Below, piece by piece: positions 33,372 through 60,552 of a DNA stretch of 64,000 nt (positions are counted from its first letter, which is position 1; each line of letters starts with the position of its first letter). The notes beneath the pieces were generated by a model. It saw nothing but the letters and a program-made list of their open reading frames with translations. It did not search any database and was not told the origin of the DNA. A program made the position numbers and the translations under genes. Source of the stretch: Stenomitos rutilans HA7619-LM2 (GTDB lineage: Bacteria > Cyanobacteriota > Cyanobacteriia > Leptolyngbyales > Leptolyngbyaceae); contig JAHHIE010000032.1 in the NCBI GenBank assembly GCA_019358945.1, forward strand, positions 1 through 64,000, read 5' to 3'.

Positions 33372-34071
33372 TACAGCTATATTAGCCTGATTTCGGGGTT
33401 TCTAGTAGATTTTTTCAGAATTCTGCACCAAATTCAAAAAAAGCTGATACCCTTTTACTAGTATCGCTTTGGGGCTTGAAGACTATATACCCGCTCAATA
33501 ACGTCACTTGCCACTAACTTGCGCAAGCTGCTTTGACACTTTCAATAGTACGCGAGGTTGAAGATTCTATAGGAATTTTTGAGAGCTATGCGTACATCAA
33601 AGTTCTCTCTTAAGTCATAACCTTATCGATAGAGTGGGCTAGATAAGGCAAATCTCCTTAAAACTGCGTCAAACTCCAGGATCTACGCTTAGATCTCAAA
33701 TAGCCACTACAGCAAAGTTGCTGACCACAGCATCAGTCGCAGATGAACCACAAGTTTCCACGTTTGCACGTTACAGGAGGTAACTGGATGATGTAGAAAC
33801 CCTCTAAAAGTCAGAACCCCTACTGCTGGACACAGAAGGGGCAAAAGACTTTATTCATTTTAGATAGGATTTGGGGACGCTAACAGGCTCAGGAAAAGCA
33901 AAAGTTAGGTCGCCTAGATTTGCTATGCCAATTTTAGTGGCAATTTGTCAAATGGTGCAACCTCTTGGACAAATTGCTCTAGTTTTTGCATGGCTTCCTA
34001 TCCGCTGTTATTTCAGCCATAGGGAGTTAACTTGTGCATCGAAATTTTTATGAAGGTCGGGAGGTTTGCCC
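33372..34071. other. AT-rich intergenic region upstream of the replication gene
   Basis: About 700 bases without a gene, between a divergent regulator and the primase-like gene. A plasmid origin could lie here, but no clear iterons were found. Confidence 0.35.
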
Positions 34072-35916
34072 ATGCAGCTAGCTCCTGACAAACGGGCTAA
34101 GCGCTCACAGCGAAGCCCTCAATTCCAATCCGTGCAGGAGGCGAACACCTTCTTCGTCATCTTCTCCCACCGCTATGACTTCTTGTGGGCTGAGCACCCC
34201 GACCCAGGCAATCACCCTGACTGGAAGACCGAAAGCAAATATCTACTGAGCGATCGTCACCTGCAGCAGGGTAATTCTCTGTATGGTGTTCGCTTCGGCA
34301 AACTCACGCGATACTTGGTGCTAGACATCGATCGCCACAGTGCCTACCATCCCTGTAACGATCCATTTGCTATTCAACGAATGCTGGCGGCACTAGAAGT
34401 GATCGGACTGGTTGCTTACGTCGCAGTCACGAGTAGTTACAGTGGCGGACTGCACCTCTACTTTCCCTTTGCACAAGAGCAGAAGTCATGGGCAATCGCG
34501 CAAGTGGTCAGCACGTTACTAGCGCAGGCTGGGTTTAAGCTCATGCCAGGGCAGCTTGAAAGCTTTCCCAACCCCAGACCCTATACTGTCGGCACACCGA
34601 GCCTCTACAACGGGCACAGAGTGCCCTTACAAGCTGGTTCCTACTTGCTTAATGAGCACTGGGAACCGATCTACAGCGACCAAGCAGCGTTCGTTGAACA
34701 GTGGCGCTGGGCCGAACGCCGGAATGACTTGGACCACAAGACCATTGAGCGTGTGTTGAAACAGACGCAACGCCAGCAATACAAAGCCGTCAAAGGCGGC
34801 GGTCAGAAATTTCTCAACGATTTGCACATGGAAATCGAACTCGGCTGGACGGGGGCTGGTCAAACTAATCGGCTGCTCGGTCGGATTGCCATGCGTGAAT
34901 ATATCTTTGGTCACATCCAACGTGGTAGCGCACCTTTAACGGGACCAGCGCTCGTAGACGCGATCGTTGAAGTGGCGGTGGCACTACCTGGCTATGAAGA
35001 GTGGTGTCGGCACCGGCACGAGATCCATAAGCTTGCTGGATATTGGGCACGCGACATTGAGGCGACATCCAAATACTACCCCTACGACCCCAGTAAGCGG
35101 GTGGCTCCCTTGGCACCACAGTCTGAATTGGAGCCAGTCAACAACATTGTGTCCTTCAACCAGCAGCAAGCACTAGACGCGAAACGACGCATCAAAGCCG
35201 CGATCGCCACACTCCAAGCAGCAAACAACCTTCCCACTGGTGTGACCGCTAGAGCGGATGCGATTGTTGGGATCGCCCGGTGCAGTAAACAAACCCTCAA
35301 CAAGCACAAAGCGCTGTGGCACCCGGCGGAGCCTAATGAAACGACTGTACTAACCCTTGTAGAGCCAGCGACAGCGCCTTCAGAATCTACCTTACTGAAA
35401 ACGCCAGAACCTTTACCAGAAGCGGATGTACACCCATTACACCCTAATAAGCTTGTGCCGCATCCTGCTGCCCCTTCCGGGCAAGCAGAAAGGCATCAAG
35501 AAGCTGGGGGGGCTGGGGGGTTTTCCACAGGTCAAACCTCAAAACTTGCTTTCTCAGCTATAGAGCCACATGATTCAGTCTTCAAGCCAAAGGTTTTAAC
35601 TACAAGTCGAGCTGGTTTCTTGCCCACAGAGCAGACCATCGTAGTGGCACCTAGTGACTGTAACCAGCCACTCTCACCGTCTCAGAGCAGTAGTGCAGGG
35701 TGTTCAAGCCCTGTGATAGATGTTGCAACGAATATGATACCAGCGACCACTCAGGTTCAGACGGAGCAGCAACGCGAGCGACAGCGGCGACAGGAAGAGA
35801 CGCTTGCCAAAAATCAGAAGTGGTTAAAGTCAGGTGATCCAGTTCTAGAGAAGGAAGCCCAGTTATGGTTTCAGGCTCAGGTGGAAAGACAGAACACCGA
35901 CCGATCTGAGTCCTAG
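34072..35916 (+). CDS. Plasmid replication protein with primase-polymerase-like domain
   Basis: About 614 residues from ATG 34072. The ribosome site GGGAGG lies 7 bases before; a TTG 6 bases earlier also keeps the frame. The N-terminal 200 residues look like an archaeo-eukaryotic primase domain. RYLVLDIDRHS carries the acidic DxD metal site, SYSGGLHLYFPF the histidine motif, and GQLESFPNPR follows as in replication primases of this type. The middle is helical (TGAGQTNRLLGRIAMREYI). From about 430 onward a disordered, proline/serine-rich linker leads to a short coiled-coil tail. It would prime or initiate plasmid replication. The family assignment is from motifs; it is not obviously the DUF3854 CyRepA type. 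Confidence 0.75.
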   Translation: MQLAPDKRAKRSQRSPQFQSVQEANTFFVIFSHRYDFLWAEHPDPGNHPDWKTESKYLLSDRHLQQGNSLYGVRFGKLTRYLVLDIDRHSAYHPCNDPFAIQRMLAALEVIGLVAYVAVTSSYSGGLHLYFPFAQEQKSWAIAQVVSTLLAQAGFKLMPGQLESFPNPRPYTVGTPSLYNGHRVPLQAGSYLLNEHWEPIYSDQAAFVEQWRWAERRNDLDHKTIERVLKQTQRQQYKAVKGGGQKFLNDLHMEIELGWTGAGQTNRLLGRIAMREYIFGHIQRGSAPLTGPALVDAIVEVAVALPGYEEWCRHRHEIHKLAGYWARDIEATSKYYPYDPSKRVAPLAPQSELEPVNNIVSFNQQQALDAKRRIKAAIATLQAANNLPTGVTARADAIVGIARCSKQTLNKHKALWHPAEPNETTVLTLVEPATAPSESTLLKTPEPLPEADVHPLHPNKLVPHPAAPSGQAERHQEAGGAGGFSTGQTSKLAFSAIEPHDSVFKPKVLTTSRAGFLPTEQTIVVAPSDCNQPLSPSQSSSAGCSSPVIDVATNMIPATTQVQTEQQRERQRRQEETLAKNQKWLKSGDPVLEKEAQLWFQAQVERQNTDRSES

Positions 35917-36752: not shown

Positions 36753-36962
36753 TTATTTATTTGCTTTGCCATTTAACTCTCCTGCTTCTTTCGCCTTCTC
36801 GATCTCTTGTTGGATCAGTGTCTCAACTAAGTTGCTCACAGAACGATTACGGCGTTCTGCTAACTGCTCGAGGTCTTCTTTTAACTCTGGGTCAATATAG
36901 GCAAAGACTTTTGCCTTGTTTGTGGCCACAGACCCCAGTCCTTCAGTCGTTTCAACATTCAT
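36753..36962 (-). CDS. Ribbon-helix-helix regulator
   Basis: The 69-residue protein has a clear RHH pattern: strand KAKVFAYIDPELKEDLEQL, turn RRNRSVSNLVETLI, then a charged helix. It is divergent from the membrane/ATPase operon starting at 37109. The symmetric site TAGCAC-N12-GTGCTA between them may be its operator. By family it would be a transcriptional repressor. Confidence 0.82.
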   Translation of the reverse strand: MNVETTEGLGSVATNKAKVFAYIDPELKEDLEQLAERRNRSVSNLVETLIQQEIEKAKEAGELNGKANK

Positions 36963-37108: not shown

Positions 37109-37912
37109 ATGGAAACCAAAGCTGGTGCAGGTTTAGAGCCTGTGCAGGAATCGTGTGTGCAAAAAACAGAGGACTGCTTGGACACGTCACAGGACACTCA
37201 TTGGCGCGAACTCGTACAACTAACGGACGTGCCCCGGACGTACACCTTTACTGAGTTGTCCGTTTTGCTCGAAGTCAACGAATCGACTCTTCGCAAGCGC
37301 TGGTGGGAGAAGCTGGAAGCGGCCTACCAACACTGCCCTGAAGTCCTCAGAGTCGAAGTGCGCACCACAAAAGCAGGTAGTCCAGTGTTTGCGTTTACTG
37401 AGTTCGGGCTACAAGCTTTTCGAGAGTTCAAAGCAGCAAACGAAGAAGGGTGTGGTGATCGCTATCTTCAAGCCGTGTCGTTGCAATATCCGCCTTCGAT
37501 AGACCCAGTGCCCGCACCTGGCAGCAATCCACCTGTGACTGTTGAGGTCGGCAATCACCAGATTGTCCTGTCCCAGCCAGAGCTACCCCAGACCTATAGC
37601 CTGGAGTCGCTCCGGCAAAGCGAAGTCATTGCCTTTGATGACCCGTTAGCGATCGCCGCCCAATTCTTGCAAACGGCCGATGCACTGACCGCAGAGATGC
37701 AGCGCGATATCCGAGTGCGAGAACAGAAGTTACAGCAGACGCAGCAGGCGAAGACCGCGATCGCCGAGAAAGCCACCGAATTCAAGCTAGAAGCGCGTCT
37801 CTACCGCGAACGAACCGAGATGCTAGCCACAGCACAAAGCCAGGAGACGCAAAGTCTACAGCAGTCTCTCACCACACTGCAAAACCTGGGAAAGCCTCCA
37901 GCGGACGCCTGA
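37109..37912 (+). CDS. Operon protein 1: HTH-like protein with coiled coil
   Basis: The 267-residue protein has an N-terminal DNA-binding-like segment, FTELSVLLEVNESTLRKRWW (about 46-65), in the style of MerR/helix-turn-helix recognition helices. A linker and a long coiled coil follow (about 190-265: QQTQQAKTAIAEKATEFKLEA). Such HTH-plus-coiled-coil proteins occur on cyanobacterial plasmids. It is the first gene of a seven-gene same-strand cluster ending in an ATPase, and may anchor the complex to DNA. Function inferred from layout only. Confidence 0.65.
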   Translation: METKAGAGLEPVQESCVQKTEDCLDTSQDTHWRELVQLTDVPRTYTFTELSVLLEVNESTLRKRWWEKLEAAYQHCPEVLRVEVRTTKAGSPVFAFTEFGLQAFREFKAANEEGCGDRYLQAVSLQYPPSIDPVPAPGSNPPVTVEVGNHQIVLSQPELPQTYSLESLRQSEVIAFDDPLAIAAQFLQTADALTAEMQRDIRVREQKLQQTQQAKTAIAEKATEFKLEARLYRERTEMLATAQSQETQSLQQSLTTLQNLGKPPADA

Positions 37913-37932
37913 TACGCCTGCTGCTATCAATC

Positions 37933-38031
37933 ATGCTCCTGGTGCTCGCCTGGGCGCTCTTAAGAGCTGACACACCGACGACTGACCCCAGCCCCTCAAC
38001 AACAGAAGCCAGCGTTCACCGTCCAAAGTAA
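37933..38031 (+). CDS. Operon protein 2: tiny single-pass membrane peptide
   Basis: A 32-residue frame, MLLVLAWALLRADTPTTDPS, with a hydrophobic helix, then a Thr/Pro/Ser-rich tail. It is open upstream in the same frame over another hydrophobic stretch (RLIRLLLSI), so the true start may be earlier, overlapping the previous gene. It fits the gap between two genes of the operon exactly; expression is unproven. Confidence 0.4.
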   Translation: MLLVLAWALLRADTPTTDPSPSTTEASVHRPK

Positions 38032-38079
38032 ACCGCTGGCTCTGGACTCCCAACCTTCCAATCAGGAGTGACTTCGATT

Positions 38080-38643
38080 ATGCCAAAACCCGTACCCGGT
38101 GAAGGACAGTACTTCACCCTCAATCCGGTGCCACCGCCCCAGCCGCCAAGCTCTAAAAGTTGGGGCTTGCCGATCGCGTTGGGCTTGCTGGCTATTCCAC
38201 TACTCATGTTTGGCTTCGGCTTCTCGCAACAGCAGCAGCCAGCCACAACTGCCGCTACACCTTCTGTCTCGCCGCTGCCGACCCCGTCACTAGCATCCCA
38301 GCAGGATGCTATCACACAACAGCCAGAAACCTTTGCAAAACCGCCTTTAGAGCCTTTACCGCTGGTAACAGCGACACCCGTTGCAGCGTCGCCTAGCGAT
38401 CCGGCTACCTTCCCGATCGCCCACATCCAGAGCCCTGGCGTGGCCGCCAACTTCCGCGCCGCGCCCAGTCTGCAGAGTCCAGTCTTAGGTGTGCTGATGC
38501 ACGGTGACTTGGTGGAACTGTCGCCCGATCGCCGCGTCCAGCAAGACGGCGTGGTGTGGGTGCCTGTGCGGTGGCGCGGTCAGTCAGGCTGGCTTGCCAA
38601 CATCTTTATCGACACCAGGAGGAGCGATGCCACACGACTCTAA
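38080..38643 (+). CDS. Operon protein 3: membrane protein with SH3b domain
   Basis: From ATG 38080 the protein is about 187 residues. It has a short proline-rich N-terminus, one transmembrane helix (GLPIALGLLAIPLLMFGFGF, about 30-50), a Pro/Ala/Thr-rich linker, and a C-terminal bacterial SH3 domain (GVAANFRAAPSLQSPVLGVL, then WVPVRWRGQSGWL). SH3b domains bind cell-wall or protein ligands, so the C-terminus is expected in the periplasm. The next gene starts inside this one (38627), which shows close translational coupling. Confidence 0.72.
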   Translation: MPKPVPGEGQYFTLNPVPPPQPPSSKSWGLPIALGLLAIPLLMFGFGFSQQQQPATTAATPSVSPLPTPSLASQQDAITQQPETFAKPPLEPLPLVTATPVAASPSDPATFPIAHIQSPGVAANFRAAPSLQSPVLGVLMHGDLVELSPDRRVQQDGVVWVPVRWRGQSGWLANIFIDTRRSDATRL

Positions 38644-39007
38644 AGCCTTGCCACTGGCGACTCAAACCGCACCCGCGAAGCTGGCAGTCTGGGCGGACCA
38701 GTCAGGAACTCCCTATCTGGTGCAACAGCAACCAGACGGTAGTACCACCTTTACCCCTCTGGAAACGGCGCTGGCTCAGGCGAAAACACCCATACCGACT
38801 GAGCGTGTGACCACCGATCGTGATCCGCTCAACACTGTGTTGCTTGCCCTTGTAGCCGTGCTGGGACTTGTCTTGGGTGGTTACTTGCTGGGCTTTTTTG
38901 CAGGTGCCGCTGGTCAGCGCATGGTGATCGTGCCTCGTTCACCCCTCTGCGACACCCACCGCAGCAGCTTCCTGTTCTGGTCTTCTGAAACTAAGGAGTG
39001 CAACTAA
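38627..39007 (+). CDS. Operon protein 4: single-pass membrane protein
   Basis: From ATG 38627 the protein is 126 residues. The start is preceded by AGGAGG at 38618-38623, which decides it over the longer frame. A soluble N-terminal part of about 60 residues precedes a long hydrophobic helix (TVLLALVAVLGLVLGGYLLG). No family recognised. It overlaps the genes on both sides (17 bases before, 1 base after). Confidence 0.68.
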   Translation: MPHDSKALPLATQTAPAKLAVWADQSGTPYLVQQQPDGSTTFTPLETALAQAKTPIPTERVTTDRDPLNTVLLALVAVLGLVLGGYLLGFFAGAAGQRMVIVPRSPLCDTHRSSFLFWSSETKECN

Positions 39008-39660
39008 TGTCAGTACCAAGAGCCAAAGGCTACAGCGGTAGCCCCAAGGGTATCCAGTCCCACATCCTGCCCCATGCAGGTGCACTGACCGAACGTGCCA
39101 CCCGCTACTTCGGCATCGACCTGGCGCGTCTACCACAAATGAGCGACCACGAACTCGCCCTCTTTGCCGATCGCGCCAACGCCATGACCCGACTGAAGGA
39201 GATTCTGCCGATCCTGGAAAAGCATTTCACCACGCTGATTGAAGGGCAAGTGGAGTATGAGCAGTTTGTCCAGCGCGTGTTGAAGCAAGTCGAGAAAGGC
39301 TCCAAGCAGATCGATAAGAGTCTTCTGGATGCCTGGCTGTTGAGCAAAGGCTACGACAGGCATTTGCAACTGATGCATCAGAAAGCCGGACACGGGATCC
39401 AGAAGCTTGAAGCGGAATACCGCTCCGAGTATGACCTGAATCGTCTGGACTTCCAGAGCGCCATCAAGCTGATCCATCTACGACATCAGAACCGTGCCAA
39501 AGCGATCGGTGAGAAAGTCCCTCAGGCACAGCGACAGCTGCAAGTGCAGGAAGCGTTGCGGTGGCAGGCTGCCACCCGTAAAGAACTGCTGACTTATGGC
39601 ACCGCTGGCAAGCCTGGGAAAGGCTTCTGGCACGGTGTCAAAGACTTCTTTCGAGTGTGA
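39007..39660 (+). CDS. Operon protein 5: soluble helical protein
   Basis: From the ATG in TAATG (39007) the protein is 217 residues, charged and almost wholly helical, with heptad-like stretches (KHFTTLIEGQVEYEQFVQRV and onward). AAGGAG lies 8 bases before the start. No membrane segment. Its place between membrane proteins suggests a structural or adaptor role; family not recognised. Confidence 0.66.
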   Translation: MSVPRAKGYSGSPKGIQSHILPHAGALTERATRYFGIDLARLPQMSDHELALFADRANAMTRLKEILPILEKHFTTLIEGQVEYEQFVQRVLKQVEKGSKQIDKSLLDAWLLSKGYDRHLQLMHQKAGHGIQKLEAEYRSEYDLNRLDFQSAIKLIHLRHQNRAKAIGEKVPQAQRQLQVQEALRWQAATRKELLTYGTAGKPGKGFWHGVKDFFRV

Positions 39661-39668
39661 GGTAAGCC

Positions 39669-40046
39669 ATGTTTGACCACTATGATTCACCCCTGATGCT
39701 CCCACCGTCCGACGGCTACTATGAGCCAGAGGACGCACCCGAACCGGATCACATTGATTACGCCCTGGAAGGCATCAGCCGCTTCATGGGACTGTTCGCC
39801 CTGGGCATTACCGTCACCTTGATCGCCCGCTGGCTGACAGCGCTCTTGCCGTTCTACTGGATCGGGGCGATCGCCTGCCTACTGGCTCTGATTCTCCCGG
39901 CTTACCTGTCGCGCAGTGCCCGACTGTTAGCGATTGCGATCGCTCTTGCCGTGGCCATCTTCACGGGCTGGTTTGACCAGCTTGCCCACACCAGCCAACA
40001 GGTGCAACAGCAAGTGCAGCAACAGGTAAAGGAGGTTTTGCGGTGA
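39669..40046 (+). CDS. Operon protein 6: small multi-pass membrane protein
   Basis: The 125-residue protein has an acidic N-terminus, then about three hydrophobic helices (FMGLFALGITVTLIARW, FYWIGAIACLLALILP, LLAIAIALAVAIF) and a glutamine-rich coiled tail. Its end overlaps the GTG start of the ATPase gene by 4 bases. No family recognised. Confidence 0.68.
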   Translation: MFDHYDSPLMLPPSDGYYEPEDAPEPDHIDYALEGISRFMGLFALGITVTLIARWLTALLPFYWIGAIACLLALILPAYLSRSARLLAIAIALAVAIFTGWFDQLAHTSQQVQQQVQQQVKEVLR

Positions 40047-41572
40047 AAGACCCCTATCTGCCTCAGATCCTGGGGCTGCTGGCGGCGGGCATGACCAGCA
40101 CGGCGCTTGCGGTCAGTGGCTACTTGCATCAGCCGGAAACGTTTCGGTTTCTGGGCACGCAGCTCACCTACCAGGCGGCTTATCGTAAAATTCCGCTATC
40201 GCTGATGGGGACTGGGCTGTGTGCGTCCGCCTGGCTGCTCACCCAAACGCGACGCGATTATCGTCGCCAGTACGAAGAGTGGGAACGCCAAACGCTACTG
40301 AAACAAGGGCAACTGCAGGCGATCGCCCATCACGCTGAGTTAGAAGGCTATCAGCAGGTGGCTCAGTTACAAGCCGCCGAACGGCTTTACCCCCAGATGG
40401 CACCGTATCTGTCAGATGTCCAAGAGGCCGACTATCAGGACGTGTCAGCACCACAACCGCAGGCTACCTCGCAGCCACAGTCAGAAACGGCTGCACCTGG
40501 GCAACCAGCCATGCCTGTAACACCCGCGTCTGCTCCAACGGCTGACACCACCGCCTACCTGCAAAACTTCCTGGAATATCCTGGGCTGTTATTCGGCGGC
40601 ATGGGTGCCGGGAAGAGTTGGACCGCTCGTTACCTGGTCATGGAAAAGGTGCGCGCGGGGCATCAGGTGATTTTGCTCGATCCGCACGCGGCCAACCACG
40701 AGTGGAAGGGCATTCGGCATATCGGTGCCGGGATGGACTACCGCGCGATCGCTGAGTTCCTGCAGTGGTATCTCGACGAAATCGAGCGTCGCTACCAGGA
40801 ATTTAACCGCTCTGGGTTGACCGAGGAAGACTGGCAGCAGTCGTTACGGCAGCAGCAGCGCATTACCAGTGTGGTGTCGGAAGAGATGACCAACTGGGCT
40901 GATCGCCTGCCCGGTGACATCGGCAGCAAGTTCTTCAAGTCCGCGATGAGTGATAGTCGCAAAGTGCTGATGCCACCGTTGTTTGTCGCGCACGATCGGA
41001 CGTTGTCAGCGCTAGGGGATGCGAAAGGCATTGCCCGGTTGCGTGACGCGGCCCTGCTGGAATTGGAGTTGATTCCCACCATCCACCCCACGACACGCAA
41101 GCCGATCTCCAGTGGCAAGGGCAAGTTAAAGCTGCCGGGACACGCTGAATGGTTGGCAGTGGAGTTGCCCCAGATTGAGCGCAAAATTACCGACTTTACC
41201 CTCTGGTCATCACCGCAAAGTCAGACCTTTCAGCCACTCACACCGCCACAAGCGCCACCACTCGATTTCCGCACTCAGGTAAACAGCTGGTTGCAGGACT
41301 GCTGGCAGGCAGACGCATCACAGCTGGAACCCAAGGAAACGCCCAGTCAAGTAGAGGCAATGCCCGCTGGCAATCTCAAAAGTCTCGCCTTGTATCTCCG
41401 CAAGAAAGGGTCGATCGCAGTGCGGGACGTGCGGCAAAACTGGGGTCGCAATCAGGGCTTAAACGGTGAGCAGGTGCAGGCGTTACTGCTGGAATTGATA
41501 GCGTTGCACCTGATCGAAACCTTCTCACCTCTCAACTCTAAGGCGGAATGGGTGCGCTGGTCTGAAACCTAG
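40043..41572 (+). CDS. Operon protein 7: membrane-anchored FtsK/TraD-like ATPase
   Basis: The 509-residue protein has a GTG start with AGGAGG 7 bases before. Two N-terminal membrane helices (about 5-25 and 52-70) precede a coiled linker. The ATPase domain has Walker A GGMGAGKSW (near residue 188), Walker B HQVILLDPHA and the later SVVSEEMTNWADRL, as in FtsK/HerA/VirD4-type DNA pumps. The C-terminus (about 440-505) looks like a winged helix (SLALYLRKKGSIAVRDV...LLLELIALHLI). It may move plasmid DNA at the membrane, powered by ATP. The partner genes upstream and the lack of a relaxase in the window set it apart from standard conjugation loci. Confidence 0.78.
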   Translation: MKDPYLPQILGLLAAGMTSTALAVSGYLHQPETFRFLGTQLTYQAAYRKIPLSLMGTGLCASAWLLTQTRRDYRRQYEEWERQTLLKQGQLQAIAHHAELEGYQQVAQLQAAERLYPQMAPYLSDVQEADYQDVSAPQPQATSQPQSETAAPGQPAMPVTPASAPTADTTAYLQNFLEYPGLLFGGMGAGKSWTARYLVMEKVRAGHQVILLDPHAANHEWKGIRHIGAGMDYRAIAEFLQWYLDEIERRYQEFNRSGLTEEDWQQSLRQQQRITSVVSEEMTNWADRLPGDIGSKFFKSAMSDSRKVLMPPLFVAHDRTLSALGDAKGIARLRDAALLELELIPTIHPTTRKPISSGKGKLKLPGHAEWLAVELPQIERKITDFTLWSSPQSQTFQPLTPPQAPPLDFRTQVNSWLQDCWQADASQLEPKETPSQVEAMPAGNLKSLALYLRKKGSIAVRDVRQNWGRNQGLNGEQVQALLLELIALHLIETFSPLNSKAEWVRWSET

Positions 41573-41593
41573 ACACAGCAGAGTTTACATCCA

Positions 41594-41684
41594 GTGATGT
41601 GTGATGTCACAGCCGTCACACATCACCCCAGACAGCAGCGCTCACATCGCTGACACATCACCGCTTTGCGCGGCTACACATCAC
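41594..41684. repeat. Iteron-like ACACATCAC repeats
   Basis: ACACATCAC occurs at 41618, 41653 and 41676, with an inverted copy at 41594-41602 and a degenerate one near 41642. The spacing is about 11 bases or multiples (24, 11, 23). The array ends just before the gene at 41700. It could be a regulator-binding array or plasmid iterons. Confidence 0.65.
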
Positions 41685-41699
41685 TGTTTAAGGAAGCCT

Positions 41700-41978
41700 A
41701 TGTTCACTAACACTAACCCTGCCATCATCCAGATCCGACGCGATTTAAGAGGCAAATTACCCGATGAGTGGCTCGAAGAAGTCATCGCCATTTTGGAGTA
41801 TCAATTGACGTATCAAACGCTGGACGAGCTGGCTACGAATGACCTCCTGAAGCTCAAACTGGGAGTAAGCTTGAGTCCAGCGCTAAAGCAGGTGTTGTCG
41901 CAGGCGATCGCGCCTGACATCCAGGCAGTGGATGTGTCGATCTCACCGCCTCTAACCTTGCGGTTGCCTTGGCAATGA
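41700..41978 (+). CDS. Small hypothetical protein
   Basis: The 92-residue protein starts at ATG 41700 after AAGGAAG. It has a helical first half (DEWLEEVIAILEYQL) and repeated short helices (LDELATNDLLKLKLGV). No family recognised. It lies downstream of the iteron-like array and could be the protein that binds it; that is speculation. Confidence 0.55.
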   Translation: MFTNTNPAIIQIRRDLRGKLPDEWLEEVIAILEYQLTYQTLDELATNDLLKLKLGVSLSPALKQVLSQAIAPDIQAVDVSISPPLTLRLPWQ

Positions 41979-42120: not shown

Positions 42121-43779
42121 GTGAGAACGGCTCAGGTTTTGTCAGTTATGCTCCTGTTGACGTTGGGCACCCTCCCCAATCTTGCGGCAGCTCAAAGTCT
42201 TGAACAGCTAGTGCAGCAGGGGCGCACGGCAGAAGCGGAGAAACAGTATAGCCAGGCGGAAGCGGTGTGGCGGCGTGTGCTTCAACAAGACCCGAAGAAT
42301 ATCACTGCTTACAATGGCCTGGGGAAGGCGCTGCGTGCGCAGCAAAAGTTGGATGAGGCCGTTGTGGCTTACCGGAAAGTCATTGACCTTAATCCCAATG
42401 ATGCGACTGCCTATCGTACGTTATGTGACGTACTGGACGATCAGCTCAAACCTGATGCAGCTGTTGTAGCTTGCCGCAAGGCGGTGCAACTCAACCCCAA
42501 GGACGCTGAAAATCAGCTTCTTCTAGGTTATGTACTGAAGAAGCAAAAACAACTAGATGAGGCGATTGTCGCGTTTCGCAGAGCGATTGCCCTCAACCCC
42601 CAATATGCGCTTGCCTACTACAATCTGGGGAATGCGCTACGTGAACAGAAGAAGCTGGACGAAGCGGTTGCCGCCTACCGTCAGGCCATCACGCTCAACC
42701 CCAAGGATGCCGATGCCTACAACAGTTTGGGGAATGCGCTGCATGACCAGAAGAAGCTAGGGGAGGCGATTGCCGCCTACCGTCAGGCTATCAAGCTCAA
42801 CCCACAGTACGCTGGTGCCTACAACAATCTGGGGAATGCGCTGAGTGACCAGAAGAAGCTAGGGGAGGCGATTGCCGCTTACCGCCAAGCATTGAGCTTC
42901 CCTGATCAACAAGGTACCTTAAGTACCGCCCATACACTCGCACACAATGGACTGGGGTGGGTCTTCCAGCAGCAAGGGCAGTTGACCGCCGCCATCCGGG
43001 AATACCAGCTGGCACGCCAAGCAGACCCCAGTTACACCTATGCGCAGTCCAATCTGCTGGAAGCGCAACGACTTCTGGCACTCAAGCCAGTGCCGCAGCG
43101 GATTGCGTTGGCTGAAACGCGCTACTTAACCAGTGACACCGTGACACCGCTGAAACGGTCCGTCGTCAAAATCATTGCGCGCTTCCCTAACAGTGCCAAA
43201 GGCTTCAGTTATGGGACCGGCTTCGTCGTCAAACGCGAGGGGAATAAAGCCTGGATTGTGACCAATCGGCATGTGGTGTTTGAACCCGATACCCAGCAAC
43301 GAGGCGAGAATCTGCAAGTGGAACTGTACTATGGCAACCCACCGGACGGGATTCCAGTGGCCCGCTTGGAAAAGGCGCAGGTCCGATTGCTGCAGATGAC
43401 ACCGCCAAATGATCCACTGGATCTGGCTGTGCTGGAAGTGACGGACTTGCCTGCAGACATTCAACCCCTATCCGTGCGACAACAGGTGCTGGGAGACCGC
43501 TTGAATGTGCGGATTATTGGTCATTCGGGGCTCCAAACCTGGCAGGTAGATGAAACAGAAAGTCTGGGCTTTGTGAATTCACAGGCTAAAGACCGCTTGT
43601 TGCTCCGTATTGACCTGAGACAAGGGGCCTCGGGCAGCCCGATTTTGGATGCTCAGAACCAGGTTATCGGTGTGTTATTTAGTGGCGGCATTACCCTGGA
43701 AACAACTGGTCTTGGTGCGGCTTACCCGATTGATGTTGTGATGACTAAACTGGCAGCCTGGGGAGTCAAATTACCATGA
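42121..43779 (+). CDS. Secreted TPR-repeat trypsin-like serine protease
   Basis: The 552-residue protein starts at GTG 42121. A signal peptide ([20 protein letters not shown]) ends near residue 24. Seven or more tetratricopeptide repeats follow (about 30-325; repeated [20 protein letters not shown]). The C-terminal S1/HtrA-like protease (about 345-550) carries the triad: His in TNRHVV (about 383), Asp in [10 protein letters not shown] (about 431) and Ser in GASGSPI (about 504). It would act in the periplasm or outside the cell. This TPR-protease layout is common in cyanobacteria. Confidence 0.9.
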
Positions 43780-44683: not shown

Positions 44684-46711
44684 TTACATTCCGGATTTTA
44701 AGCCTGTAGGAATGCCGTCGACTCCGGTCACAACCCTGGCCCAACCAGCATCAGGTCCCATATCGACAAAGCACGTTTTCATCCAGTTAATGGTAAGGTA
44801 TTCGTTAGCTCCAGATCCGTCACCAATAGTAATCCACTCGTCAGAAGTACCGGCACGACTACCAAAAGGGTTATGGCAAACATACCCTTTTGGGTCACGA
44901 CCTATAATGATGATGAAGTGTCCGTCAATTTTATATTTGGTTCCCACTTGCATTGGGATGCCGTTGTACAAAGAATTGTCTAACTCGTCTAGGCTAATGG
45001 TTGTAGAGAAATAGCTCTCAATCCCGATTGATCTTAACGCTCTAGTGATTGCACCAGAATCAGTCGTGTCGCCTCCAGTTTTTCTTAATACATCCTGCAT
45101 TCCATTTGCAAAATCGCTATATTCTCCCCAGAGACTTGGCTTGAGATACTTTGCCAACATCGCCGCTGAGGTTAAATTACACTGCCGCGAACCCGCTCCT
45201 TGACCCTTTGAGCCGCTGTTGTCGTTCTGGTCGTTAAACGGCACATCGAGTTTGAATTCTTTGCTAGTAGGCTTCGGCTTTTGTGGGTATTTTAGGATTT
45301 CCTTAACCGCTTCGACATGTAAAGCTGGTGATGGGACTCCTAATTTACGCAGACCTTGCTGCCAAAAATCACATTCTCTACGGCGTCTCCTCCTCAAGCC
45401 TTCTGTTACATTAGAGCCAGGATTGACATACAGCATGAGTGCGTTGGGTACATCATGCCATCGCCTCTCTTTTAGGCAAGTTGTAATTGTATGAAAGTCA
45501 GTTTCATCACCGTAAAAATGTGCACCTAGGTTATAGGCAAAACTGCATAGGGCGGAGCGCATATCATCATGCATCTCATCCCAGTAAGGGATTGCTTTTT
45601 TGATGATATTCCAATAGTTCTTCTTAAGATCAGTATTCAAGTATTCATCAGCTTGCGCTTGCGTAATGCGCTCACCTCTTCTAACTTTTCTTCCATCAGG
45701 ATATATTGTAGTGCCCCAACCAATTGTCCAGGGCTCGTTGCCGCTTTTTGGATCTGGATAAGCGGATAGCTCACAACCTTCAAATTCTTGAATGAGCTTA
45801 ACTGCTTGCGGTGGTATTATAGTTTGAGCTTGAGGAGAAAGATTAGGATCTCTTGGTTTAAGGGTTCCTGTGATTGTTGAGGGAATGCTAGAAACCCCTG
45901 GCAACTGGTTAATGGAAGCCCGCCCTGAGCCATTTTTCACGGCAGGAGACAAGCCTACTGATGGGGCAACGTTAGATGGATCGGCAATGGGATCAGTTGG
46001 AGTGCGTGAAGCTGGTTGAACAACTCCTAGGTCCGAGCCATTCAAAGACACTGTCCCATTTGGTTGATCTGGTTGTGGAAGGATGGGAATCAGCAGAGGC
46101 GGTATAGCTGGCGGTGGTGAAGCGCTTGGAGGTTCAGGCAGATCGGAAGAAAGACTAGCAATAGTGTCGTCTTTATTGCGACTACCGGCTGACGAACCAA
46201 AATAGTAACCGAGTACAGTACTAAACCCTGCTGTCAGAGCACCAATCAGTATGTTGATAAGGCTCTGCTGAGTCTGGTAGCTCGCGTAGTTCGCGTCGTC
46301 TTTGCCAATCAGCTTGGGAGGGTGAAATATCAGCGCGCTAAGTAACACTGTGAAAGCTAAAATGACGAACGTACCAAGGACAGAAGGGTACCAATCCTTC
46401 TTGCCCGTCGCTTTGGTAATTTCTACCTCGCGGGATCGAGCACTGGCTCTGTCGGCATATTCGGCTTGATCCATCTGCAGCCTGACGCTGGCAAGGTATT
46501 GGTGATAATTAACCTCCAACTCCCTGAGTTTTAAGGCTGCATCCGGATTTGCCTGGATTTCCTTGGTGATGTCTTGCGGCGATGAATTATTCGGAAGGTT
46601 CAAGGCATGGAGGATCAAGCTTATTGGCGCAGCGGCAAGTGTAGCAGGTCCACCTATAACTGATCCTAGTAGTGGAGCACCAATTCTTACCAGATCGTCT
46701 AATAATGCCAT
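44684..46711 (-). CDS. Fusion of holin-like, GH24 lysozyme and C39-like peptidase domains
   Basis: The 675-residue protein starts at ATG 46711 after GAGGTGG, so the upstream GTG is not used. The N-terminal helical part has two membrane helices (YPSVLGTFVILAFTVLLSAL, then LINILIGALTAGFSTVLGYY), like three-helix holins. A Pro/Ser-rich linker leads to a phage-type GH24 lysozyme (about 280-420), with catalytic Glu in IQEFEGCELSAYPD and the WTIGWGTT motif. The C-terminal papain-like C39 peptidase domain (about 465-660) has Cys in RQCNLTSAAM, His in DGHFIIIIG and Asn in CHNPFGS. The protein may both cut peptidoglycan and process peptides at the membrane. It is downstream of the SPFH gene and likely in its operon. 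Confidence 0.82.
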   Translation of the reverse strand: MALLDDLVRIGAPLLGSVIGGPATLAAAPISLILHALNLPNNSSPQDITKEIQANPDAALKLRELEVNYHQYLASVRLQMDQAEYADRASARSREVEITKATGKKDWYPSVLGTFVILAFTVLLSALIFHPPKLIGKDDANYASYQTQQSLINILIGALTAGFSTVLGYYFGSSAGSRNKDDTIASLSSDLPEPPSASPPPAIPPLLIPILPQPDQPNGTVSLNGSDLGVVQPASRTPTDPIADPSNVAPSVGLSPAVKNGSGRASINQLPGVSSIPSTITGTLKPRDPNLSPQAQTIIPPQAVKLIQEFEGCELSAYPDPKSGNEPWTIGWGTTIYPDGRKVRRGERITQAQADEYLNTDLKKNYWNIIKKAIPYWDEMHDDMRSALCSFAYNLGAHFYGDETDFHTITTCLKERRWHDVPNALMLYVNPGSNVTEGLRRRRRRECDFWQQGLRKLGVPSPALHVEAVKEILKYPQKPKPTSKEFKLDVPFNDQNDNSGSKGQGAGSRQCNLTSAAMLAKYLKPSLWGEYSDFANGMQDVLRKTGGDTTDSGAITRALRSIGIESYFSTTISLDELDNSLYNGIPMQVGTKYKIDGHFIIIIGRDPKGYVCHNPFGSRAGTSDEWITIGDGSGANEYLTINWMKTCFVDMGPDAGWARVVTGVDGIPTGLKSGM

Positions 46712-46823
46712 TTCCACCTCAAAATACACGCTACGCTTGCTAGATAGTTCACTTCAACCTTGGCCACGAACTGTTGGTAAAATTCTCGTATCAAGAAATC
46801 TACACTTTAGAACGATCATTTTC

Positions 46824-48434
46824 TTAGCTCTTGCTATCATTTTTCAATGAGTGAAGCAGCTCAAGCAGTAAATGTCCTAGCTTCCCATCAAGTAAGGATT
46901 GAATAAGTAACAGACTACTCGTAGAAAGCATCAGCTTGCTGATATCCTCTCCATTGCCGTTTTGAAAAGTATAGATATTGGAGTCTCCCAAAACTCCGGC
47001 TTTGGGGGCTAATGCTTGGGCAATTTCAACGAATTTGGGTAATTCAGGGAGCATTTCTTGGATCAAATGTACTATTCGATCAGCATCTGTAGCTGGGATC
47101 AGATTGTGGCGAGTACCATCTGCTTTGGCTAAGCGTTCGATAATTTTGGCTTCATTCTCGACGGCATCAGCAGCTATTTCCGTTTTTAACTTTTCACGGT
47201 TGGATTTGGCTTGTTCAATCTCTGTCGTAAGCTCTTCTGCTTTTTTGGCACGATCAATTTCATGATCTAGTCTTTTTTGTTCTGCCTGAATAATCGAGAT
47301 TGCAACTTCAATTTCTTCGATTTCTAGTGCTTTATGGACTTTACTTCTCAAGGACTCTACCGTTTCTTTAATCCGCAGCTCGGTAGTTTCAATAAATTCT
47401 CTAGTACTGAATTTAGAAGTTTCGATCTCATCTTGCAATTTCTTTTGTTGTTTATCTTTATGTAGTTCAATATTTAGCTCATGATCAATCTTCCCTTTTT
47501 CAAATTCTTCAAGTTTTTTTAGCCTGCCAAGATGTTTCAGTTGGCGGTTGACCTCTATTTCTTCTATAGAACTACTTATCTCCCACTCTTTTTCTCGTAT
47601 ATCACGACCGATACCTAACTTATATTCCTGCATTTGTTTTTCTGCATCTAATTCACGCTTGTGTATTTTCTCTTCTGTATCTAGTTCTTTTTTGCGAGTC
47701 TCAAGAATTGCATTTTGTATGACATCTGTTCGATGCTGAATTGCTTGAGCATCAAAGTAGTTAGTGGCTGTATAGTCAGAGGTTTCATCAATCTCACCGA
47801 TAACAAGACCTGTAATCTTCAAGCCTAGATTCGACAAATCTTCTTTTAGTAGCTCTTTAGCTTGAGCACCAATATTTATTGCTGAAGTTTCCCCTGATGG
47901 ATTTCCTTCATTATCTTGTTGAGAACGGTTAGCTTGAAGAATAATAGTTCCTCGGCTTTTTTGGAGTTCATCTAGTGTATTTATTTTACTAGTCAATCCC
48001 CGAATCACAGACTCCGCACGTTTTCTTACTGCTTTATCAACTGCTACTGCTGAAATGCGATTTCCTTCATACAAAAAATTCATAGCTTTTTGTACATCTT
48101 CAATACAGACATAAACAGTTGCTTGCACAGTAGCTCGCAGATTATCCAGAGTACGAATATTAGAGACTTCTATGTTAATAGCAAATTCTTGGGCTGGTTC
48201 TACTGAATACAATTCATTAAAAGCTTTCATGACCCGGTTTTTTGCTTTTGTGAACTGGATGTTTTTAGGCAAGAGTTTAACCACACACAAAGTGACCGCT
48301 ACAGTGACCACCGCAGTCAATGCAACTGGCCATAATGGGAAATTTGTGGGAATTTTCTGTGGGGACGATACAGAAGGAGTGGCACTAGACTGAGCTACGA
48401 TAAAAGGCACTGATTGATTAGTTTTCGTTATCAT
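46824..48434 (-). CDS. SPFH/flotillin-like membrane protein with long coiled coil
   Basis: The 536-residue protein has one membrane helix near residues 30-55 (VALTAVVTVAVTLCVVKLL). An SPFH-like domain follows (about 70-230: FAINIEVSNIRTLDNLRATV, then LLKEDLSNLGLKITGLVIG). A highly charged coiled coil of about 200 residues and a C-terminal oligomerisation-type region complete it. SPFH proteins form membrane microdomain rings. Upstream lies a 229-bp Tn3-derived element. The lysozyme-peptidase gene follows 113 bases after, so the pair may act together at the envelope. Confidence 0.8.
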   Translation of the reverse strand: MITKTNQSVPFIVAQSSATPSVSSPQKIPTNFPLWPVALTAVVTVAVTLCVVKLLPKNIQFTKAKNRVMKAFNELYSVEPAQEFAINIEVSNIRTLDNLRATVQATVYVCIEDVQKAMNFLYEGNRISAVAVDKAVRKRAESVIRGLTSKINTLDELQKSRGTIILQANRSQQDNEGNPSGETSAINIGAQAKELLKEDLSNLGLKITGLVIGEIDETSDYTATNYFDAQAIQHRTDVIQNAILETRKKELDTEEKIHKRELDAEKQMQEYKLGIGRDIREKEWEISSSIEEIEVNRQLKHLGRLKKLEEFEKGKIDHELNIELHKDKQQKKLQDEIETSKFSTREFIETTELRIKETVESLRSKVHKALEIEEIEVAISIIQAEQKRLDHEIDRAKKAEELTTEIEQAKSNREKLKTEIAADAVENEAKIIERLAKADGTRHNLIPATDADRIVHLIQEMLPELPKFVEIAQALAPKAGVLGDSNIYTFQNGNGEDISKLMLSTSSLLLIQSLLDGKLGHLLLELLHSLKNDSKS

Positions 48435-51850: not shown

Positions 51851-52678
51851 TTAGTTCTGCTGCGATTGCTGTTGCCGGGTAATGCGCGCGATCGTTTCGA
51901 CCTCCACGCCCAACTCCTCAGCAATTTGTTCGGCACTCAAACCAAGCCTCAAAAAGCTAGGAACCGCACGGGCAAGAACTTCTTCAACGCCCTCTTCCTT
52001 GACCTCTTGATAGAACCGGGTCTGCTTCAGTTCGTCTAATCCCAGCATTTGCCTGATTGCCTCCCGCTCAAGGGTTGGAAACTTATACACCAGTGTCGCT
52101 AACACCAATTCTACGACGCGCTCACGCTCTGCGCCATCCGTAACCTCATCCCTGGCTCGCTCAACCAGTTGTCTTGCACGCTCTGGAGCCACAGCATCAT
52201 CCAAACCAATGAGTTGCAGTACACGCAGCTCCAACGATTGCTCAGTCAGGTTAGCTGGTAACTGATCTAAGTAGACGCGCTGGAAGCGAGCACTACTGGC
52301 ATAGTCTTGAAAGTGAAGGGGTAACTGTGGGTCAAGGTTACGCTGGGTAAAGATCAGAATACCTAGCCAGTCTTGCACCGGTTGGTAATCACGCAAGTAC
52401 AGAAAGATTTCAGCAAAGAAGCTGTGATAGAGAATCTTTTTCTGATCACGATAGCCCTGCACCTCCACAAAGACGAGGGGCAAGTCCACGGCATCCGGTG
52501 AGGGGGTGAGCACGCCATCAATCCGGAAGGCCAGCTGCTTCACCTCCTGAGAGCCAAACGCATAAGTGCCTGCAGGGGGAGTGGTCTCGCCAAGGAGTTG
52601 AAATACTAAGTCAGGGCGATCCTTAAATAAACGGTAGAACAACGTATCCGTCTTCACAAGTGGTTCCGGTCTTGGCAC
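51851..52678 (-). CDS. DUF2887 / Rpn-family putative nuclease
   Basis: The 275-residue protein matches the DUF2887 Rpn-like family of cyanobacteria: KTDTLFYRLFKDRPDLVFQL at the start, FRIDGVLTP with the catalytic Asp, and PLVFVEVQGYRDQKK with the E-x-Q of the PD-(D/E)xK nuclease fold. A helical C-terminal half ends in an HTH-like segment (GLSAEQIAEELGVEVETIAR). The start may instead be the GTG of VKTDTLF. Rpn nucleases cleave DNA and promote recombination; the cyanobacterial members are untested as far as I know. Confidence 0.88.
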   Translation of the reverse strand: MPRPEPLVKTDTLFYRLFKDRPDLVFQLLGETTPPAGTYAFGSQEVKQLAFRIDGVLTPSPDAVDLPLVFVEVQGYRDQKKILYHSFFAEIFLYLRDYQPVQDWLGILIFTQRNLDPQLPLHFQDYASSARFQRVYLDQLPANLTEQSLELRVLQLIGLDDAVAPERARQLVERARDEVTDGAERERVVELVLATLVYKFPTLEREAIRQMLGLDELKQTRFYQEVKEEGVEEVLARAVPSFLRLGLSAEQIAEELGVEVETIARITRQQQSQQN

Positions 52679-54054: not shown

Positions 54055-55374
54055 ATGAGCGAGTTAACGACTACGTATGAATGGAAGTCCATCCCCTGGC
54101 GCAAGCTGGAGCGGAAGGTCTTTAAGTTGCAAAAGCAAATCTACCGAGCCGCTGGTCGTGGTCAACGAGCAAAAGTGCGCAGGCTTCAGCGACTCCTGAT
54201 CCGCTCTTGGGCAGCCAGAGTTCTGGCAGTGCGACGAGTGACGCAAGATAATGCTGGCAAGAAGACAGCAGGCATCGACGGCTTAAAGTCGCTTCCACCG
54301 CCTCAACGGTTGTCCCTTGCCCAACGTCTTCAGTCTGGTTGGGGCAAGGCTTCTCCCACGCGTCGGGTCTGGATTCCCAAACCGGGTAACACCGAAGAAC
54401 TCAGACCGTTGCAGATTCCAACCTTAGAGGACAGGGCAAGACAAACCCTGTTCAAACTAGCGTTGGAAGCACAATGGGAAGCCAAGTTCGAGCCAAACTC
54501 GTTCGGCTTTCGCCCAGGACGCTCCTGTCACGATGCAATCATGGCGATCTACCTCCAGGTTTGTCATCAACCGAAATGGATCTTAGATGCCGATCTGGCC
54601 AAGTGTTTCGACACGATTGCGCAAAAACCCTTGTTGAAGAAGCTGAACGCCAGTCCGTTTGTCACTCGGCAAATCCGAGCGTGGCTGCGGGCAGGGGTCA
54701 TGGACAACTTCCAGTACAGTGAAACGCCACAGGGCGTGCCACAAGGCGGAAGTTTGTCACCCTTATTGGCGAATGTGGCGTTGCATGGCATGGAAACCTA
54801 CCTTGAGCGCTATGGCAAAGGGGCAAGGGTGATCCGCTATGCCGATGATCTGTTGGTGATCCATCCGCAACGGCAGGTCATTGAACACGCGCAACAGCTA
54901 CTAGGCAAGTGGCTGGCAAAGATGGGATTAGCCTTCAAGCCAAGTAAAACTCGCCTCTGTCACACCCTCGAAGCCGTGGATGGGCAGGTCGGGTTTGATT
55001 TCCTGGGTTTCTCGATTCGGCAATACCGAGTGAGTAAATATACATCCGGGCAGTCAATGAAAGGCTACAAAACGCTGATCCAGCCTAGCAAAGCAGCAAT
55101 GCAGAGACACCTTCAGCAATTGCAGACGGTGATTAGAAGCCACAAAGCAGCCCCACAAGTTGCTTTGATTCAACACCTCAACCCGATCATTCGGGGATGG
55201 TCGGCTTACTTCTCGGCACAGTGTAGTAAGAAGGCTTACGCCAAGCTGGATTACTTGCTCTATCAAAAACTGCGAGCCTGGGCACATCGTCGTCATCCTA
55301 ACAAGGGCGGACAATGGCGAGCCAGTCGCTACTGGCTAGTCAATCAAGGAGGAGGATGGGTCTTTGCTGCCTAG
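54055..55374 (+). CDS. ltrA: Group II intron reverse transcriptase-maturase
   Basis: The 439-residue protein has RT motifs in order: GIDGLKS, RPLQIPTLEDRARQ, FGFRPGRSCHDA, LDADLAKCFDTI with the first catalytic Asp, GVPQGGSLSPLLANV, VIRYADDLLVI with the YADD box, and GFDFLGFSIR. The maturase (X) domain contains LIQHLNPIIRGWSAYF. It ends WVFAA at an amber TAG. The same frame then continues into an HNH domain, so the protein was longer in the ancestor. It aids splicing and reverse-transcribes the intron. Confidence 0.92.
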   Translation: MSELTTTYEWKSIPWRKLERKVFKLQKQIYRAAGRGQRAKVRRLQRLLIRSWAARVLAVRRVTQDNAGKKTAGIDGLKSLPPPQRLSLAQRLQSGWGKASPTRRVWIPKPGNTEELRPLQIPTLEDRARQTLFKLALEAQWEAKFEPNSFGFRPGRSCHDAIMAIYLQVCHQPKWILDADLAKCFDTIAQKPLLKKLNASPFVTRQIRAWLRAGVMDNFQYSETPQGVPQGGSLSPLLANVALHGMETYLERYGKGARVIRYADDLLVIHPQRQVIEHAQQLLGKWLAKMGLAFKPSKTRLCHTLEAVDGQVGFDFLGFSIRQYRVSKYTSGQSMKGYKTLIQPSKAAMQRHLQQLQTVIRSHKAAPQVALIQHLNPIIRGWSAYFSAQCSKKAYAKLDYLLYQKLRAWAHRRHPNKGGQWRASRYWLVNQGGGWVFAA

Positions 55375-60018: not shown

Positions 60019-60552
60019 TCATAGCAATTCCGCCACTGCATCCACTTCGTCCTTACCGATCGCCAGATACTTCGCCAAATTCCCCAGGTCAACATGACCT
60101 GTTCGCTCCTGGAGCGTCTTCAAGGGCACTCCCTGCTTATAAAGCTTCGTCAGCCCAGTACGGCGGAAGCTGTGAGTGGATATGCCTCGAATGCCCAGGT
60201 AATCACAGGCTTTCCGCAGTGCCAGGTCTGCTGCTTGCCGGGTCAGATGTCCTTCCTGCTTTCCAGGGAAGAGATAGCCAGTGGTGAGTAGGTCAGCCTG
60301 GTCCAGGATGGCTTGTAGCTTAGTGGGGACTTTTACATCACGAGTCATCTTCGTTTTAGTCGTTCGAGCACGGAACACGATGCGATCGCGAATGATGTCC
60401 GATCGTTGCAACTTCAATGCTTCACTCACCCGACAGGACGTGTAGTAGCAAATGGCAAAGAGCAAGCGATGGTTATCCGGCAAGACCTGCATCAGCTCCT
60501 CTAACTGCTGCTCTGTTAAAACTTCCGCCTGTCCATTACGGTTATTTTTCAT
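60019..60552 (-). CDS. Minimal tyrosine recombinase (catalytic domain only)
   Basis: The 177-residue protein has all the catalytic residues: Arg in SCRVSEALKL, a Lys in the TKTKMTRDV hairpin, HSFRRT (HxxR), GHVDL and the Tyr in AKYLAI. It lacks the N-terminal SAM-like core-binding domain of standard integrases. It starts 3 bases after the end of the gene at 60556 and is probably co-transcribed with it. The broken gene at 1-3823 appears to have had a similar compact design. Confidence 0.9.
   Translation of the reverse strand: MKNNRNGQAEVLTEQQLEELMQVLPDNHRLLFAICYYTSCRVSEALKLQRSDIIRDRIVFRARTTKTKMTRDVKVPTKLQAILDQADLLTTGYLFPGKQEGHLTRQAADLALRKACDYLGIRGISTHSFRRTGLTKLYKQGVPLKTLQERTGHVDLGNLAKYLAIGKDEVDAVAELL

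Follow-up and report, generated by a model that had tools for sequence, protein, structure and literature searches.

In Streptomyces, the plasmid locus clt consists of 7-bp repeats that lie within and beside the end of an FtsK-like tra gene, and in pWTY27 it runs into traA itself (PMC3583192). Here, we analyze a compact operon from the cyanobacterium Stenomitos rutilans HA7619-LM2 that encodes an FtsK/TcpA-type ATPase and is followed by a clt-like array of short repeats. The stretch of DNA analyzed (the window) comprises bases 1-64,000 of the 78.9-kb contig JAHHIE010000032.1, whose plasmid-type genes encode a ParA-like protein, serine and tyrosine recombinases and a ribbon-helix-helix (RHH) protein. 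An initial annotation had pointed to seven tightly packed plus-strand genes at 37109-41572 as a possible DNA-translocation module. These genes are indeed present, but the array (41587-41684), which was overlooked at the time together with an eighth gene (41700-41978) and the RHH and primase-like neighbors, is the most informative part of the locus. No description of such a module was found in the open-access literature searched.

The ATPase (509 aa; 40043-41572, plus strand) comprises a hydrophobic N-terminus, a long helix, a motor (~aa 166-393) and a predicted winged helix (~aa 441-505). It combines a RecA-like motor and a Walker A motif (GGMGAGKS at aa 185) with the fold of the FtsK/HerA superfamily and, judging from its modeled structure, is almost certainly an FtsK-like translocase of double-stranded DNA (dsDNA). 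While Pfam profiles match it weakly, and only as generic FtsK/HerA types (DUF87/FtsK), its AlphaFold2 (AF2) model, with predicted local distance difference test (pLDDT) values of ~90 in the motor and ~80 in the winged helix, aligns in VIA-align with TcpA (Z 17.2, root-mean-square deviation 3.1, 204 aligned residues) and FtsK (Z 16.3, 3.9, 219 aligned), followed by HerA (Z 13) and VirB4 (Z 12), and the top Foldseek matches in the PDB are again FtsK (E 5e-7) and TcpA. These alignments span the motor only (model residues 164-393), so the winged helix is taken from the AF2 model alone, in which it consists of three helices (442-455, 460-470 and 475-487) and two strands. The initial annotation had described a membrane-anchored ATPase with a winged-helix end; the model bears out the latter, whereas the N-terminal hydrophobic hairpin is borderline in the window protein, with no segment at a hydropathy cut-off of 1.6, and is clearer, by eye, in Nostoc homologs. 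From the sequence, we infer a location at the membrane. The Pfam matches of the ATPase (E up to 10) and of 59 of its relatives (E up to 0.01) did not include the profile PF02534 (T4SS-DNA_transf), so that these proteins do not classify as VirD4/TraD-type coupling proteins. Proteins that do match PF02534 are encoded elsewhere in the genome, on contigs C31, C71 and C52. A further contig, C70, encodes two equal-scoring distant relatives of the ATPase (at 52288 and 154489), which differ in their tail and lack an array.

Directly behind the ATPase stop codon, the array presents the 7-base word ACATCAC in two exact minus-strand copies (41594 and 41601) and then three plus-strand copies (41620, 41655 and 41678), with degenerate copies at 41587 and 41644; five copies are reached in 1 of 3000 dinucleotide shuffles. 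The same layout and word recur in four relatives, and most related loci have an array behind the ATPase gene, although its word differs by lineage. We counted about 17 distinct words across the relatives, which besides ACATCAC include ACGGCAC, CCGTCAC, ACCTCAC, AGACACC, GACAGA, CACACAA, CACGGCA (with the same core as ACGGCAC), GTCCCGA, CCAAC, TCTAGAT, GCGACAA, CTGACAA, ACTCAGC, TGTCTCG, TGTCTTG, GTCCACA and CGTCAAC. In the GACAG class (L159), the repeats extend into the 3' end of the ATPase coding sequence. Outside the array, the words occur near chance frequency on most of the dozen or so plasmids and contigs checked, with one of the richest plasmids (L046) containing 6 copies against 3 expected. 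On these replicons, the array is a local site rather than a plasmid-wide polarity signal of the kind formed by FtsK-orienting polar sequences (KOPS).

The winged helix very probably reads the adjacent array, a pairing of reader and address that is strongly supported by sequence co-variation. Among 16 close relatives with four different words, the identity of the winged helix averages 0.89 within and 0.68 between words, with complete separation of the two distributions (lowest within-word value 0.78, highest between-word value 0.77), whereas neither the motor (0.95 versus 0.94) nor the N-terminus (0.87 versus 0.85) shows any such signal. At the nucleotide level, the difference between word classes rises only at ~41330-41690. 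When mapped onto trees, the words change 29 times on that of the motor and 9 times on that of the winged helix, the latter being the minimum for ten words. In Nostoc, two sublineages of the operon, distinguished by the cluster of their helical protein, each hold both a class A winged helix with AGACACC and a class B winged helix with GACAG. ATPases without the winged helix are also without the array; among them is a recurrent type with an 'LW.vKKGG..Y..A' tail, whose operon surroundings yielded no convincing substitute for the array. Five coexisting plasmids of Nostoc UHCC 0870 have AGACACC in common and winged helices that are 91-99% identical, while RHH proteins are only 12-31% identical in all same-strain plasmid pairs in which both could be compared. 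This sharing of word and winged helix, but not of the RHH protein, argues against a centromere or iteron role of the array. From these sequence comparisons, the RHH protein and ParM look like a partition system, and the ATPase and array like a function that can be common to several compatible plasmids.

A number of distant relatives (L105, L123, L124, L147, L154, L166, L172 and L181) have an alternative 'LNQTEIIEKLWQCKKGGSAAWKEAYAQF'-like ATPase tail, which was never seen with a downstream array and is possibly a second kind of address reader.

The array and its reader are part of a conserved gene order. The core of the module consists of a helical soluble protein (217 aa; 39007-39660, plus strand), a small protein with three transmembrane (TM)-like segments (125 aa; 39669-40046, plus strand; segments 35-53, 58-76 and 84-102) and the ATPase, whose gene overlaps the preceding one by four bases (GTGA at 40043). 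This order is kept in about 77 related cyanobacterial loci, in agreement with the neighborhood conservation on cyanobacterial plasmids that the initial annotation had named as a check, and four other contigs of the genome also have the operon, three of them in full or nearly so and one in part, so it is not a chance arrangement. The helical protein falls into one similarity cluster in 62 loci and into a second, at the same position, in 15; its gene keeps a constant distance to that of the ATPase, and many loci without it are contig ends. It matches no known family, with Pfam and PDB profile searches giving nothing useful, and its AF2 model (pLDDT 46) is too poor for a structure search. A gene of the three-TM type occurs at the same place in relatives. 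The view of the locus as a DNA-translocation module lacking a type IV set is supported by the conserved order, by a motor that resembles FtsK and TcpA in its fold and by the lack of matches between the other core genes and standard type IV families.

In tblastn searches, querying with the window protein detected the ATPase on 29 named plasmids and querying with a Nostoc relative on 45, the hosts being Nostoc, Tolypothrix, Microchaete, Calothrix, Aulosira, Oscillatoria and Kovacikia. We take all of these genera to be filamentous. A scan of genome contigs returned 80 loci, every one of them cyanobacterial, and a survey of the class found a relative at E < 1e-20 in 26 of 388 genomes. No record in the phage collection encodes the ATPase (tblastn). 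Four IMG/VR contigs of unclear nature (L128-L131), filed as viral, encode a relative with a winged helix and a CTGACAA array and may represent phage-plasmids or plasmids that were wrongly classed as viruses; a phage origin of the module was dropped, as these four contigs were all that pointed to it.

Taken together, these features suggest a mechanism in which the putative winged-helix reader binds the 7-base repeats just downstream of its own gene and serves to load the FtsK-type motor at this site. The motor, kept at the membrane through its N-terminus and the small membrane proteins, would then pump the plasmid as dsDNA across the envelope or septum into a neighboring cell. By analogy with TraB and clt, we consider such transfer between cells to be the function of the module with a probability of about 0.5. 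It is tempting to speculate further that filamentous cyanobacteria have their own relaxase-independent system for dsDNA conjugation or for spreading along filaments, with an evolvable reader-address code in which tail and repeat word are swapped together between plasmids as a cassette, a possibility that we advance only tentatively.

Several points weigh against this interpretation. When random windows are drawn from the same contig for comparison, p for the window's array falls only to 0.027, and about half of the arrays pass p < 0.01 individually in their own contigs, so that the case for the arrays is a comparative one, made across loci. In the distant relative on Pseudanabaena pPg_01, no clear array was seen behind the ATPase gene, and one locus (L136) combines a class-B-like winged helix with TCTAGAT-type repeats. 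Moreover, winged helix and array are physically adjacent, and co-inheritance as one block accounts for part of their co-variation. Two observations, however, go beyond block inheritance: winged helix and array are lost together, and two classes of winged helix that are only 19% identical both contain R-D-L/V-K-K and are both paired with ACGGCA, although the latter is a single case. On many Nostoc plasmids, the operon is headed by the gene for the segregation protein ParM. Its presence need not imply segregation only, since in plasmid R1 conjugation is promoted by ParM, which binds the coupling protein (PMC4949242). By MOB-suite typing, 33 of the 45 named ATPase-bearing plasmids have a relaxase, an enzyme that would be dispensable for a TraB-type system, compared with 96 of 262 CyRepA1-type plasmids (Fisher p 6e-6, for overlapping sets); this enrichment links the module to mobile plasmids. 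Finally, transfer between cells is itself an inference from the locus.

The main alternative is that the module aids segregation. The ATPase would then be a plasmid-borne FtsK/SpoIIIE-like pump, co-regulated with ParM or the helix-turn-helix (HTH)-coiled-coil protein encoded at the start of the operon, that is loaded at the array and frees the closing septum of plasmid copies or resolves dimers together with a tyrosine recombinase. Such a role would fit the type of motor and the position of ParM, which comes first in up to 45 loci, beside the divergent RHH gene. Sharing of ATPase and array by coexisting plasmids would suit a septum-clearing pump as well, and a tyrosine recombinase is annotated on many such plasmids and present in the window (60019-60552). 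However, small recombinases of this kind are common on plasmids without the ATPase (931 matching plasmid records), which led us to reject a Xer-like partnership. In addition, the words do not show the dispersal over the replicon that KOPS show on chromosomes, many of these plasmids have a separate ParA system, and relaxase-bearing plasmids are over-represented. On balance, we regard this explanation as unlikely, although it is the most serious of the alternatives.

It is less probable still that the ATPase acts as a coupling protein that, like TcpA of pCW3, delivers plasmid DNA processed by a relaxase, through a channel formed by the small membrane proteins or provided by the host. TcpA is the top fold match, many relatives reside on MOBP, MOBV or MOBF plasmids, and NCBI names some of them 'type IV secretory system conjugative DNA transfer family protein'. 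Yet the Stenomitos genome, despite its several module copies, yielded no MOBP, MOBF or MOBV relaxase (PF03432, PF08751 and PF01076) and no VirB4 (PF03135) in profile searches, for which the MOBP and MOBV profiles were positive on Nostoc plasmids and the MOBF and VirB4 profiles were controlled on standard genomes only. The VirB4-type ATPase and relaxase that would together indicate type IV secretion are thus both missing from these results. The description of the locus as 'without relaxase' is accordingly correct for the window and its genome, within the three families searched, but does not extend to the plasmids of its relatives, and a type IV-like apparatus was annotated on none of those examined, except for one 300-kb plasmid typed MPF_T. 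To our knowledge, type IV coupling proteins dock on relaxosome proteins and have no repeat array read by a winged helix. Lastly, direct repeats are typical of iterons and centromeres, and rep and RHH genes lie a few kilobases away, but it is highly improbable that the array is such an element, read by a Rep, RHH or HTH protein and located behind the ATPase gene by coincidence, because its word tracks the winged helix through recombination, AGACACC is common to plasmids with differing Rep families (CyRepA1, DUF3987, DUF5906 and PriCT-2), coexisting plasmids agree in the word and differ in the RHH protein, and the RHH-parM intergenic region differs in sequence.

The genes of the operon overlap or nearly touch one another. 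The first of those outside the core encodes a protein with an HTH and a coiled coil, both read by eye (267 aa; 37109-37912, plus strand), which belongs to a family present in 7 loci, gave no significant match in a Pfam search and occupies the position filled by ParM on many Nostoc plasmids. It is followed on the same strand by a tiny membrane peptide (~32 aa with an uncertain start; ~37933-38031), conserved as a peptide in four relatives (L006, L049, L058 and L051), and by two single-TM proteins found in 15 loci each. The first of these (187 aa; 38080-38643; TM-like segment 30-48) has an SH3b domain (PF08239 SH3_3, E 2.9e-6) and is the single operon product with a clear known domain, while the second (126 aa; 38627-39007) has a TM-like segment at 71-89. 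Downstream of the array, the eighth gene (41700-41978, plus strand) encodes a 92-aa protein without a family match in Pfam that is conserved in the window's close relatives (15 loci).

Two upstream genes count as part of the module neighborhood. The divergent RHH protein (69 aa; 36753-36962, minus strand; PF07878 RHH_5, E 1.2e-8; PF01402, E 8.8e-7) is a probable partition or incompatibility adaptor, encoded at the position of 'ParG' on Nostoc plasmids. The primase-like plasmid replication gene (616 aa; 34066-35916, plus strand) has weak profile matches only (ligD_pol, E 0.0015; primase PHROG, E 0.039), takes the position of the CyRepA1 rep gene of Nostoc plasmids and has related DNA close to two other module copies in the same genome. 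The usual layout on Nostoc plasmids is rep, RHH ('ParG'), divergent ParM, small genes, helical protein, membrane protein and ATPase; in three of them (L046, L090 and L132), the RHH-parM gap contains a conserved leader with a AAGCCAGAAAGTGATG-like sequence upstream of parM, possibly a parC site or a regulatory RNA. Elsewhere in the window, the gene right behind the module (42121-43779, plus strand) encodes a protein in which TPR repeats and a trypsin-like region were recognized by eye, a phage-lysozyme and C39-peptidase-like protein lies beside a Band_7/SPFH-domain protein (44684-48434, minus strand), and a Tn3-family transposase (390-3359, minus strand) and a group II intron reverse transcriptase (54055-55374, plus strand) are also present.

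A system with one motor and a defined DNA address would make it possible to test how plasmids travel from one filamentous cyanobacterium to another and along a filament and, if it acts as proposed, could serve as a natural means of transfer into hosts that resist engineering. It would then also mean that TraB-like logic is not confined to actinomycetes. Moreover, the ~17 words and their matching winged-helix classes offer natural material for studying a protein-DNA recognition code.

The statement in the initial annotation that 'no known conjugation set has this content' was too strong, since the logic of the locus matches that of the Streptomyces TraB/Spd/clt systems. Among known systems, the transjugation ATPase TdtA of Thermus resembles the cyanobacterial module in being an FtsK-HerA DNA pump whose gene sits in a small operon and is not part of a type IV system, although, unlike the module, it has no recognized DNA-binding domain and no repeat address (PMC5365140). 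TcpA of the Clostridium plasmid pCW3 provides the nearest solved motor fold; pCW3, however, has a type IV-like apparatus. FtsK/SpoIIIE and KOPS share with the module the motor fold and a C-terminal winged helix, here predicted, that reads a short word, but the module has its words in one local array instead of distributing them in polarized form. The closest parallel is with TraB/TraA, clt and Spd of Streptomyces plasmids such as pSVH1 and pWTY27. Both combine an FtsK-type motor that is followed by a winged-helix DNA reader (putative in our case) with short direct repeats located at the end of the motor gene or beside it (7-8 bp in pWTY27), small membrane proteins in the operon and multicellular, septate hosts. 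The cyanobacterial module differs in its hosts, in core companions that belong to no known family, in its ParM and RHH neighbors and in the relaxases found with many relatives. Its likeness to TraB is one of anatomy, not of companion proteins; the PDB matches of its motor are to FtsK and TcpA.

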